The position numbers and the translations under genes were made by a program. Below the pieces are notes generated by a model. The model saw only the letters and a list, made by a program, of their open reading frames with translations. It did not search any database and was not told where the DNA came from. A DNA stretch of 64,000 bases from Erythrobacter sp. 3-20A1M (GTDB lineage: Bacteria > Pseudomonadota > Alphaproteobacteria > Sphingomonadales > Sphingomonadaceae), in the NCBI RefSeq assembly GCF_018636735.1, contig NZ_CP045200.1, forward strand, positions 1,798,001-1,862,000, written 5' to 3'. Of this stretch, positions 52,078-59,337 are shown piece by piece; the first letter of the stretch is position 1; each line of letters begins with the position of its first letter.

Positions 52078-52452
52078 TTACTTGAGCTCGACCGTGCCGC
52101 CGGCGGCTTCGATCTTGCTCTTGATCTCTTCGGCTTCGGCCTTGTTGACGCCTTCCTTGAGCGGCTTCGGCGCGCCTTCGACGAGACCCTTGGCTTCGGT
52201 GAGGCCCAGGCCGGTGATGGCGCGGACTTCCTTGATGACCTGGATCTTCTTGCCGCCGTCACCGGTCAGGATGACGTCGAACTCGTCCTTCTCTTCGGCG
52301 GCGGGCGCATCGCCCGCGCCACCGGCGGCAGGCATCGCCACCGCGGCCGCGGCGGACACGCCCCACTCTTCCTCGAGAGCCGAGGCGAGCTCGGCGGCTT
52401 CGAGGACGGTCAGCTTCGACAGTTCTTCAACGAGAGCCTTGATATCGGCCAT
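52078..52452 (-). CDS. rplL: 50S ribosomal protein L7/L12
   Basis: Stalk protein of the large subunit that recruits translation GTPases. 124 residues: N-terminal dimerisation region ([26 protein letters not shown] at about 5-30), Ala-rich hinge, and C-terminal domain with [44 protein letters not shown] (shown only as the block 81-124; key residues are the Gly-Leu-x-Glu-Ala-Lys and the final GGTVELK). It follows rplJ with a 72-bp gap. Confidence 0.98.
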
Positions 52453-52524
52453 GATGCATTACTCCAAATTTAGGCGGGGTGCGTGCTGCGCCCCAGTTGA
52501 ATGTTTGCGTATTGGAAAAACCGC

Positions 52525-53040
52525 TTACGCCGCGTCCTTGGCGCCATAGGCACCGAACACGCGGGCGAGCTTGGCGGCGGGGGCGTTGACCACCTGGGCG
52601 ACCTTGGTCGCCGGGGCGTTGACGAGACCCACCAGCTTTGCGCGCAGCTCGTCGAGGCTGGGCAGCGCGGCGAGCGCCCTGACCCCTGCTTCGTCGAGCA
52701 TCTGCCCGCCCATCGATCCGCCGACGATTTCGAGCTTGTCGTTCGTCTTGGCGAAATCCACCGTGGCCTTCGCCGCGGCGACCGGGTCTTCCGACCAGGC
52801 CAGCGCCGTCGGGCCGGAGAGATATTCCTCCAGCCCTTCGTAATCGGTGTCCTTCAGGGCGAGCGTGGCAAGACGGTTCTTCGCAACCTTGTAAGTCGCA
52901 CCCGCTTCGCGGACCTTGCTGCGCAGATCGGTGGATTGCGCCACCGACAGGCCGAGGTTGCGGGTGACAACCACCACGCCGACCTCTTTGAAGACCGCAT
53001 TGAGCTGGGCGACCGCTTCGGTTTTCTGCGAACGATCCAT
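52525..53040 (-). CDS. rplJ: 50S ribosomal protein L10
   Basis: Base of the ribosomal stalk, anchoring L7/L12 dimers to 23S rRNA. 171 residues, with the N-terminal rRNA-binding domain (KTEAVAQLNAVFKEVGVVVVTRNLGLSVAQ, over about 5-34), the core VAKNRLATLAL and a C-terminal helix that binds L12. The ATG at 53040 is preceded by AAGGAG. The downstream rplL is co-directional. Unlike the usual layout, rpoB is not downstream but lies on the opposite strand 2.1 kb away. Confidence 0.98.
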   Translation of the reverse strand: MDRSQKTEAVAQLNAVFKEVGVVVVTRNLGLSVAQSTDLRSKVREAGATYKVAKNRLATLALKDTDYEGLEEYLSGPTALAWSEDPVAAAKATVDFAKTNDKLEIVGGSMGGQMLDEAGVRALAALPSLDELRAKLVGLVNAPATKVAQVVNAPAAKLARVFGAYGAKDAA

Positions 53041-53384
53041 GCCGTACTCCTTCACTAATGGCCGCACCTGCCCGGCATGGGCACGCACGACCGGCTCACA
53101 CGTCCCGCGCCGTAGCCGGCACGGGGCTTGGTCCGTTCGATCAGGGAAGGAGGAGTGCGATCCCGGGACATGGCCGAGGGATGCGCGGTGGCACCGGGCA
53201 GGGCGGGCCGAAAATCTCGTTTCCCCGTCTAGGCCGGAAATTAAGAGGGACAGGTTTCCCTCACCAGCTGTCTCGGACGGATGACCGCCGAAGCGATCGG
53301 GCGCGCCTTTCGCGCAATGGCGGGGGAATGTCAAGGCAGGGCGCGGGCATGCGCCGCCCGGACCTGTCGTTCCCTCATACGAAA
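53041..53384 (-). promoter_or_regulatory. rplJ-rplL leader region, likely with promoter and L10 autoregulatory leader
   Basis: There is no gene between the terminator at 53385-53408 and rplJ. A TTGACA box on the minus strand (53334-53329) is a candidate -35, with only a weak -10. The remaining 270 bp of 5' untranslated sequence is rich in potential pairing, as in the L10 leader family in which L10(L12)4 binds its own mRNA to repress translation. The RNA structure was not computed, so this is inference. Confidence 0.4.
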
Positions 53385-53456: not shown

Positions 53457-53711
53457 TTACATCGCCGCGTCGGTCGAAGCCGTGTCGGTCGGGGTCGCGC
53501 CGTCGGTCATCGCGCCGTCGGTCGGGGTCGCGGTGTCGGTCATCGCGCCGTCGGTCATGGTGCCGTCGGTCATCGTGGCGTCGGGCATCGCGGTCTCGGT
53601 CGGGGTCGCCATCGTGGTGTCGTCCATCGCGGTCGTGTCTTCGGCCGGCTTCTCGCCGCAGGCGGCGAGGGCGAAGGCGACGGGCAGGGCGGCGATCAAA
53701 AGCTTCTTCAT
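53457..53711 (-). CDS. small Thr/Asp/Met-repeat lipoprotein
   Basis: An 84-residue protein with a lipoprotein signal (MKKLLIAALPVAFALAAC, lipobox LAAC). The mature part is made of degenerate pentads and decads such as TMTDG, AMTDG and ATPTD, probably disordered. At the DNA level these appear as GTCGGTCAT-type direct repeats that could slip. Function is unknown. It has its own terminator and lies 96 bp beyond the HTH regulator gene on the same strand. Confidence 0.8.
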   Translation of the reverse strand: MKKLLIAALPVAFALAACGEKPAEDTTAMDDTTMATPTETAMPDATMTDGTMTDGAMTDTATPTDGAMTDGATPTDTASTDAAM

Positions 53712-53807
53712 AACGAATCTCCTAGGTGAGGTTTCAATGCCTCAATGCGGCCATAATTCGATTCGTTCCGAATTGGGAGCGAAAAATTCATCCGATGGAA
53801 AGGTTGG

Positions 53808-54011
53808 TTACGCTTTTTCCGGGCCGTAGGCCAGCAGGTCGCCGGGCTGGCATTCCAGCTCGCGGCAGATCGCCTCGAGCGTGGAGAAGCGGATCGCCTT
53901 CGCCTTGCCGGTCTTCAGGATCGAGAGGTTGGCGAGGGTCAGGCCGACGCGATCGGCCAGCTCGGTCAGGGTCATGCGCCGCTCGTGCAGCAGGTCGTCG
54001 AGCTTTACCAT
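53808..54011 (-). CDS. Cro/CI-type (YozG-like) transcriptional regulator
   Basis: A 67-residue single-domain DNA-binding protein. The helix-turn-helix covers about residues 13-42: MTLTELADRVGLTLANLSIL and then KTGKAKAIRFSTLEAICRELECQPGDLL, the pattern of small regulators paired with DUF2975 proteins. The start is ATG at 54011 because GGAAGGAG lies eight bases upstream; an in-frame ATG at 54038 overlaps the DUF2975 stop (TGATG) and is an alternative. Such regulators act as dimers on short palindromes, and it is the natural candidate to bind the four TATCG-N5-CGATA sites at 54771-54852, which would make the cassette autoregulated. Confidence 0.85.
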   Translation of the reverse strand: MVKLDDLLHERRMTLTELADRVGLTLANLSILKTGKAKAIRFSTLEAICRELECQPGDLLAYGPEKA

Positions 54012-54037
54012 GATGTTGGCTCCTTCCTCCGCGGGCA

Positions 54038-54592
54038 TCACACGGTTCCTTCCAGATCGGCGCGCATGGCGGCACCTTGCCGGAACACGCGGGCGAGGAT
54101 GAACAGGACGACGACCATCACGATGCCGCTGAAGTCCAGGCTGGCATCGACATGGATCCAGTCCGTCTGCGAACCCTCCGGCCGGGGCATGTCGCCTGCG
54201 AAGAGCATCCCGATCGCGCCGATCGGCAGGGCGAGCAACTGCACCGCCAGCATCTGCCACGCCATATTGGTGAGGCGCGTCGCGTTGACGGGCAGGAACG
54301 GATCGCCCTCGCCCACCGTGTCGATGATGCGGCGCAGATTGCGCAGGAACAGGTAGAGCAGCACGAACGCGACCAGCGCCAGCAGCAGCACGGCGATGGC
54401 TGGCAGCACGGGGAAATCGGCGGTCGGCACGCCGGAGGCGGTGCGCAGCTTTTCCTCCACCGTGTCGCCGACGAAGGGCAGGATGGCCGCGACCACCCCC
54501 ATGGCGAGGATCGCGATCGCCATCAGGGTTTCCCCGATGACCACGACGATGCGCGCTATGGTGAGCAGGGGATCGGACTTGGTGGCTTTCAT
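54038..54592 (-). CDS. DUF2975 four-helix membrane protein
   Basis: A 184-residue inner-membrane protein with four helices at about residues 9-40, 62-90, 112-135 and 148-170. The block LRNLRRIIDTVGEGDPFLPVNATRLTNMAW (over about 83-112; the key part is GDPFxxxNxxRL) is the conserved centre of DUF2975. Members occur with small HTH regulators throughout bacteria, and its function is unknown; sensing a membrane or envelope signal is inferred. The ATG at 54592 is chosen over longer frames because it begins the usual MKATKSDPLL-type N-terminus. It lies between the small peptide gene and the regulator. Confidence 0.85.
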   Translation of the reverse strand: MKATKSDPLLTIARIVVVIGETLMAIAILAMGVVAAILPFVGDTVEEKLRTASGVPTADFPVLPAIAVLLLALVAFVLLYLFLRNLRRIIDTVGEGDPFLPVNATRLTNMAWQMLAVQLLALPIGAIGMLFAGDMPRPEGSQTDWIHVDASLDFSGIVMVVVLFILARVFRQGAAMRADLEGTV

Positions 54593-54629
54593 GATGGCGA
54601 ACTCCGGGTGAAGGGCGGGGCGGGTGGGC

Positions 54630-54752
54630 TCAGGCAAGCTGCCCGGCGGCGGGCTGGCTCGCGACAGGCGCGGCGGGGATCGCGGCCACCTGCTGGAACG
54701 TGGCGAAGGTCAGCAGCACGGCGGTGGCGAATGCGAAGAGGCGAGCGGTCAT
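54630..54752 (-). CDS. 40-residue secreted or membrane peptide of the DUF2975 cassette
   Basis: A short frame of 40 codons with a hydrophobic core (about residues 4-24, LFAFATAVLLTFATF) and a Pro/Ala-rich C-terminal half, ending QPAAGQLA. It has the look of a signal peptide plus a short mature tail, or a single-span membrane peptide. The ATG at 54752 is preceded by AAAGGA at good spacing, and the frame ends 37 bp before the DUF2975 start. It is the first gene after the operator array. I do not recognise a family; coding is supported by the ribosome site, composition and position. Confidence 0.65.
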   Translation of the reverse strand: MTARLFAFATAVLLTFATFQQVAAIPAAPVASQPAAGQLA

Positions 54753-54770
54753 GATTATGTTCCTTTCATG

Positions 54771-54852
54771 TATCGAATCACGATGATGTCGATATCGCTA
54801 ATCGATAAACAAAACCGCCCATATCGTCAATCGATAATATCGAAAAACGATA
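54771..54852 (-). promoter_or_regulatory. array of four TATCG-N5-CGATA palindromes with embedded promoter
   Basis: Sites: 54771-54785 (TATCG-AATCA-CGATG, one mismatch), 54793-54807 (TATCG-CTAAT-CGATA), 54822-54836 (TATCG-TCAAT-CGATA) and 54838-54852 (TATCG-AAAAA-CGATA). The arms are exact in three. On the minus strand TTGACG (54830-54825) and TATCGA (54807-54802) are spaced by 17 bases, so a -35 sits within one site and the -10 within the next, ahead of the peptide-DUF2975-HTH genes. Confidence 0.8.
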
Positions 54853-55170
54853 ATCCATTGATACCGCTCGCATTTGCCCGCCCCGTGTCCGCCCTCACCC
54901 GTTGACTTCGCGCGGCCTCCCGCCTATCTCGCACCCAACCGCCGGCTTCGAGCAAGGACGGTCCTGCGCGGGGATCGACCTAGGAATGGAAGCGGCGCGC
55001 TCCATAATCGCGACGTTCTGACTGGCTGCAGCTGTCCACCGGACCGGTGGGCGATTCGCTGCGGCCTTGCAGCGTCTGCGGTGGAGCCTGTCCCGCACGC
55101 GAACATCACGGCGATCCGGCGCGCGCGTCCCGCGGCGTCCGGGAACACGAAGAAAGAGGTACTCTCCTCC
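54853..55170 (+). promoter_or_regulatory. rpoB upstream leader region
   Basis: A 318-bp stretch between the operator array and rpoB with no recognisable gene; it must contain the rpoBC promoter. A perfect palindrome CCACCGG-A-CCGGTGG lies at 55036-55050. The closest ribosome site is AGAGG 15 bases before the ATG. No classical promoter stands out by eye. Confidence 0.45.

Positions 55171-59337
<4,167 letters not shown>

Follow-up and report, generated by a model that had tools for sequence, protein, structure and literature searches.

How is the small gene cassette that lies back to back with rpoB in Erythrobacter sp. 3-20A1M regulated, and what reads the palindromes in front of it? The window, the whole stretch of 64,000 nucleotides that was analysed, contains upstream of three minus-strand genes, which likely form one operon, a cluster of four sites of the form TATCG-N5-CGATA. 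With good confidence we propose that this four-site array lies on the predicted operon promoter, that the HTH_26 regulator encoded by the operon itself binds there and autorepresses the peptide-DUF2975-HTH genes, and that the DUF2975 protein is the likely antagonist of the regulator.

The regulator gene is found on the minus strand at 53808..54011, and the original prediction of a 67-residue protein of the Cro/CI type at this place was correct in length and position. The protein matches Pfam HTH_26 (PF13443) with 78.7 bits against a gathering cut-off of 22 (E 4e-22) and is the predicted binder of the array. In the model of the protein the recognition helix comprises about residues 26-34, limits that are approximate since the pLDDT is only 75.9. 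Directly before it on the same strand stands the gene for a protein of 184 residues (54038..54592, minus strand) that matches Pfam DUF2975 (PF11188; 46 bits against a gathering cut-off of 27, E 6e-12) and has the C-terminus -LEGTV. Its hydrophobicity predicts a membrane protein, and its model (pLDDT 90.2) consists of four long helices, the last of which reaches residue 183; a fold search against the PDB gave a best E-value of 1.8 and no confident match. The first gene of the likely operon is a 40-residue hydrophobic ORF resembling a signal peptide (54630..54752, minus strand). Downstream of the regulator gene a lipoprotein-like ORF of 84 residues (53457-53711, minus strand) consists largely of imperfect MTDG-type repeats and has no match in Pfam or NCBIfam. 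The neighbouring genes at 52078-53334 (minus strand) and 55171-59337 (plus strand) are, as we recognise them, rplL and rplJ and rpoB, respectively. The usual gene order is rplJL-rpoBC. Since rplL and rplJ point away from rpoB in the window, this order is interrupted, with the cassette lying between the two parts.

As originally described, three exact copies and one copy with a single mismatch of TATCG-N5-CGATA lie within 82 bp (54771-54852), and a pattern count finds the same number. In the direction of the operon, on the minus strand, site A (54838..54852, TATCGTTTTTCGATA) is exact, conserved in relatives and centred at about -50 of the predicted promoter; site B (54822..54836, TATCGATTGACGATA), also exact, follows after 16 bp and contains the predicted -35 element; site C (54793..54807, TATCGATTAGCGATA), the third exact copy, follows B after 29 bp and contains the predicted -10 element; and site D (54771..54785, CATCGTGATTCGATA), with one mismatch, follows C after 22 bp. 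Within the entire genome of 3,116,220 bases the exact pattern occurs only in these three copies, A, B and C, all within 60 bp, and the pattern written backwards, used as control, occurs exactly once. Relaxation to TATYG-N5-CRATA adds three scattered sites in the genome (backwards control, two), and exact, relaxed and array-pattern scans found no second array there. When up to two mismatches are allowed, the window contains 25 matches against 20.4 expected, a number reached by 23 of 100 shuffles; one-mismatch matches occur at four places in the window besides site D. As loose matching thus stays at chance level, loose single matches are uninformative, and the strength of the array lies in its exactness and clustering. 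Site D, weak by itself, is credible because its 22-bp offset, shared with relatives, is among the commonest in the family (39 pairs); in several relatives the ribosome-binding site falls inside the corresponding site. In several relatives (for example at loci L057, L063 and L064) another site, the fifth and a weaker one, precedes A by 22 bp on the rpoB side; none is seen there in the window.

Is the array tied to this gene set? A search for DUF2975 in 60 relatives, the genome of the window counted, found it in 19, and at 19 of 19 loci the HTH gene follows directly after the DUF2975 gene. Upstream of these pairs lies a multi-site array, with fewer sites at two loci (L021, L022) and in the TATTG/CAATA form at another (L009). 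In 199 genomes of the family the array pattern CGATA-N1-2-TATYG-N5-CRATA was found at 50 places in 49 genomes and its backwards version at none, and a search for the HTH protein in the same 199 genomes gave 113 matches in 101 genomes. No fewer than 46 of the 50 array places stand 567-1350 bp upstream of an HTH match; three of the other four are isolated, and one lies at a contig end with the HTH gene on another contig (G223). All 67 HTH matches without the strict array pattern were retrieved as well and their upstream DNA was inspected for exact sites. For HTH proteins with at least 69% identity, exact TATYG-N5-CRATA was present upstream in 86 of 89 cases (46 plus 40 of 43), the three exceptions being two loci without the site and one cut by a contig end, and the reversed motif was present in 0 of 43. 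Counting single sites was rejected as evidence, as 48 of the 60 relatives have an exact site at some place and the backwards control is likewise present in many of them; arrays and their position were taken as evidence instead. The array, not the single site, is the locus-specific feature. The comparisons below use 83 family loci after deduplication, of which 19 had been collected through DUF2975, 19 through the array pattern and 45 through the HTH or as regions; the array is present in 80 of 82 of them, a proportion not counted as evidence because the array pattern was partly used in gathering.

Moreover, the site is not confined to the family. Named loci were selected by the HTH peptide patterns ILKTGKAK and FSTLEAIC, not by the operator, and comprise the best 80 of 580 listed confirmed stretches, 25 of the 80 being Sphingomonadales by title; four were dropped for short upstream DNA. 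They come from many phyla and include Lysobacter, Prevotella, Spirosoma, a planctomycete, an Opitutae bacterium and Meiothermus, as well as Bacillus, Geobacillus, Paenibacillus, Streptococcus and actinobacteria. Among these best 80 of 580 listed, exact TATYG-N5-CRATA lies within 1.5 kb upstream of the HTH gene at 66 of 76 loci, that is at 25 of 25 in Sphingomonadales and 41 of 51 in others, against 0 of 76 for the reversed motif, 0 of 72 for downstream DNA and a shuffled expectation of 0.20; eight of the ten loci without an exact site have a site with one mismatch and two have none. A search of the class gave 67 HTH matches, and of the 26 outside the family that were examined 14 have an exact site; it is missing at 12 of 26, one of these having only 403 bp of upstream DNA. 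The tight A-B pair was discarded as a marker outside the family, since it occurs in 13 of 372 class genomes (11 outside the family) and its backwards control in four. The check that had been suggested for the original prediction, whether relatives carry the motif upstream of DUF2975/YozG-type HTH pairs, thus gave a positive answer within the family and beyond. The motif is neither absent from orthologous loci nor randomly scattered, 46 of 50 arrays standing upstream of the HTH gene, and the proposed link between regulator and array at the peptide-DUF2975-HTH cassette is supported by the conservation in family and cross-phylum loci.

What would binding at these sites do? It had been claimed that the best promoter falls inside two of the sites. 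The element pair and its spacing are indeed present, with a predicted -35 TTGACG (54825..54830, minus strand; five of six consensus positions) within site B and a predicted -10 TATCGA (54802..54807, minus strand; three of six) within site C, separated by a 17-bp spacer; the resemblance to consensus is weak, and a strict scan of 53700-55200 for sigma-70 -35/-10 consensus found 0 promoters, missing both elements. Of 80 family loci, 54 have a TTGACR-like element paired with TATYGA (spacers 15-20), and in 45 of 80 the spacing is 17 bp, with the -35 in B and the -10 in C. The offsets between sites peak at 29, 16, 22 and 45 bp in the family and at 16 and 22 bp in the named set (best 80 of 580 listed, sphingomonads included); in non-sphingomonads such as Lysobacter pairs of sites lie 22 bp apart, about two turns of DNA. 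The recurrence of 16, 21/22 and 29 bp hints at cooperative binding. Judged from the predicted elements, the first of the four sites would be centred at about -50, the next two would cover the -35 and the -10, and the last would fall in the start region of the transcript.

Such an arrangement would suit a repressor. The HTH_26 regulator would bind each 15-bp site as a dimer, and the occupied array would block RNA polymerase at the operon promoter, resulting in autorepression. A distant sequence relative of the regulator is VanUG (E 9e-4; structure PDB 3tyr), which we take to belong to HTH_26. The regulator is not itself a VanU protein by the NCBIfam equivalog model (NF000090), as its 27.7 bits are below the cut-off of 150. 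In the vanG operon of Enterococcus faecalis, VanUG is an autorepressor that acts via two inverted repeats lying side by side over the -35 and also represses a second promoter, and its partner genes encode a two-component system (PMC4405338), in contrast to the DUF2975 partner of the regulator in the window. Repression is preferred over activation because -35, -10 and start are all covered by sites and because the relative VanUG autorepresses. Alternatively, the regulator might bind the array mainly as an activator, with site A recruiting RNA polymerase and the lower sites limiting the response. Promoters were inspected at 16 chosen distant loci, and in four of them (Streptococcus, Tepidanaerobacter, a Clostridia bacterium and Spirosoma) the site lies 23 bp upstream of the best -35, much like site A here, which would fit activation; at one of the 16 it lies 28 bp upstream, and four of the 16 gave no promoter match. 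This activation is nevertheless unlikely, as three of the four sites in the window cover the -35, the -10 and the start region, as in one Meiothermus and six Firmicutes loci the site and the -35 (spacer 17 bp) overlap, the six Firmicutes sites themselves providing the -35, and as VanUG, though distant, is an autorepressor.

Could the array instead serve mainly the divergent rpoB gene, so that the level of RNA polymerase is tuned to a membrane signal? The distance of 318 bp between array and rpoB given originally is right when measured to the rpoB ATG at 55171, and the facing arrangement recurs: of 83 family loci, 58 have rpoB as divergent neighbour, in 52 cases at a distance within 500 bp. A predicted divergent rpoB promoter, TTGACT-N17-TATCTC (54902..54930, plus strand), likewise missed by the strict scan, has its -35 at 49 bp from site A, and 51 of the 52 loci with rpoB within 500 bp have TTGAC-N16-20-TA on the rpoB strand at a distance of 19-151 bp from the array, against 0 of 52 on the other strand and 4 of 52 in reversed text. 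Against rpoB as the main target, the system is retained at 25 of 83 loci where no rpoB was detected in the DNA covered (upstream DNA being short at two of these), the sites lie on the predicted promoter of the operon and not on the predicted -35/-10 of rpoB, and 19 of the 83 loci were collected by the array pattern. Control of rpoB as the chief function is therefore improbable, and any effect of the array on rpoB is speculative; the synteny is explained most simply by common ancestry. Autorepression of the operon by its own regulator remains the preferred explanation.

Is the HTH_26 protein the reader of the sites, or does another protein bind the array and the link with the regulator merely reflect conservation of the operon? 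The genome does encode further regulators, including a second HTH_26-like protein, a paralogue 45% identical to that of the window (G000:C1:871983-872174, minus strand). In 24 aligned proteins with 64-89% identity to the regulator, N28, L29, S30, L32 and K33, which make up much of the recognition helix, as well as K36-A39 behind it are invariant, although this near-identity of the helix is in part a selection effect because the scan patterns required these residues. In the paralogues of the family, with 46-61% identity, the recognition helix begins with TEAN, TESN or similar, and LLKSGKVKG mostly stands in place of ILKTGKAKA. TATYG-N5-CRATA is found upstream of only 6 of 24 of them and the reversed motif of none. 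Instead, five of the 24 (L102, L103, L105, L106 and L111) have an exact TTCTG-N5-CAGAA upstream, which has the same 5-5-5 layout and occurs in 0 of 56 orthologous loci; this second motif was found by a search in the very loci in which it was then counted. The contrast between orthologues and paralogues is strong, and since 6 of 24 paralogues keep the site it is not absolute. That an altered recognition helix goes along with an altered site supports the HTH protein, not a third protein, as reader of the site. Furthermore, the site accompanies this clade of HTH proteins from phylum to phylum, whereas most proteins with a different recognition helix lack it or have another palindrome in its place, and DUF2975, the second gene that the loci share, shows little conservation (17-51% identity to the protein of the window), all of which makes a different binder very improbable. 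That the palindromes arose by chance in an AT-rich promoter can practically be dismissed, for although loose matches are near expectation (25 versus 20.4) and 48 of 60 relatives contain an exact site somewhere, the genome has no exact copy besides A, B and C, and conservation upstream of the HTH gene in relatives far exceeds every control.

If the regulator represses its own operon from the array, how would repression be relieved? The DUF2975 protein is the likely antagonist, a role suggested by its linkage to the regulator and by its C-terminal tail. Identity to the DUF2975 protein of the window drops to 17-19% in the most distant partners; the Pfam DUF2975 domain is matched in 8 of 10 distant loci, the exceptions being one Prevotella and one actinobacterial locus, and its matches range over Bacillus, Streptococcus, Spirosoma, Barnesiella and sphingomonads. 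At 78 of 83 family loci, 13 of 24 class loci and 64 of 78 named loci (best 80 of 580 listed), the product of the gene before the HTH gene has [GL]T[VIL] as its last residues. None of the 24 proteins paired with HTH paralogues has such an end; theirs are other hydrophobic ones, for example -FV or -IV. The -[GL]T[VIL] tail is thus common in the partners of the HTH clade and absent from those of its paralogues, and may be a docking tail for the matching HTH protein. DUF2975 probably holds or releases the regulator depending on a signal from the membrane or from a peptide, so that capture of the regulator at the membrane would switch the operon on.

The short peptide might modulate DUF2975 or act as the signal, which is a guess. 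A short hydrophobic ORF, mostly of 36-46 residues, lies between array and DUF2975 gene in 51 of 80 family loci (53 were found, and two of 9 and 17 residues were discarded); in 24 of 80 the DUF2975 gene is next to the array, and three of 80 were left unassigned. Seven loci of the genus of the window have two tandem, differing peptide ORFs (L008, L010-L015). In ten close pairs of peptide ORFs the differences at codon positions 1, 2 and 3 number 22, 16 and 86, and 50 of 52 peptide ORFs have a C-terminal alanine. Owing to this excess at the third codon position and to the C-terminal alanine it is very likely that the sphingomonad peptide is translated. A profile search found 61 database proteins, including that of the window; those with a name are hypothetical proteins, and none of the 61 has a Pfam domain.

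Among known systems, the one in the window would, by analogy, work most like CylR1/CylR2 of the E. faecalis cytolysin locus, which combines a suspected membrane protein with a tiny HTH repressor and responds to a peptide (PMC3709268). The same source gives CylR1 three predicted helices, compared with the four long ones of DUF2975, and CylR2 a separate toxin operon as target; no toxin gene was recognised in the operon of the window. CylR2 and the regulator have a similar fold at 16% identity. In the window, the DUF2975 gene beside the regulator gene encodes a putative membrane protein, judged by hydrophobicity and four long predicted helices, and a peptide ORF is present. The DUF2975-HTH pairs of Bacillus, which we take to be of the YoaS/YozG type, consist of the same two kinds of genes, with the site upstream in Bacillus, Geobacillus and Paenibacillus loci; they differ from the window in having one exact site, on the -35, instead of three, and in that no peptide gene was seen before DUF2975. 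Phage 434 Cro and SinR, further comparable regulators, are not known to have a DUF2975 partner.

Systems of this kind are thus already known. Literature searches found no published operator for DUF2975-HTH pairs, and neither the palindromic site nor its spread nor the C-terminal tail was found in print; DUF2975 itself is scarcely mentioned in a full-text search. As the same site lies upstream of DUF2975-HTH modules across bacteria, the finding is larger than a local array: by comparison of the sequences, the array is the sphingomonad multi-site form of a site common to these modules. A more far-reaching proposal, which we consider rather doubtful, would be that DUF2975-HTH is among the most widespread membrane-to-DNA switches of bacteria, with one operator (TATYG-N5-CRATA) and one recognition helix preserved in different phyla and a -[GL]T[VI] tail by which the membrane protein captures the repressor, to which sphingomonads would have added a membrane peptide of their own as signal, four to five sites and a position back to back with rpoB that makes the output of RNA polymerase follow the switch. 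In Erythrobacter sp. 3-20A1M the lack of a second array in the genome suggests a self-contained switch, the output of which would be DUF2975 and the peptide. For DUF2975, a domain of unknown function, the site together with a candidate binder and a partner-specific tail amounts to a testable signalling module, and the site allows the targets of the regulator to be hunted in any genome that carries the module.
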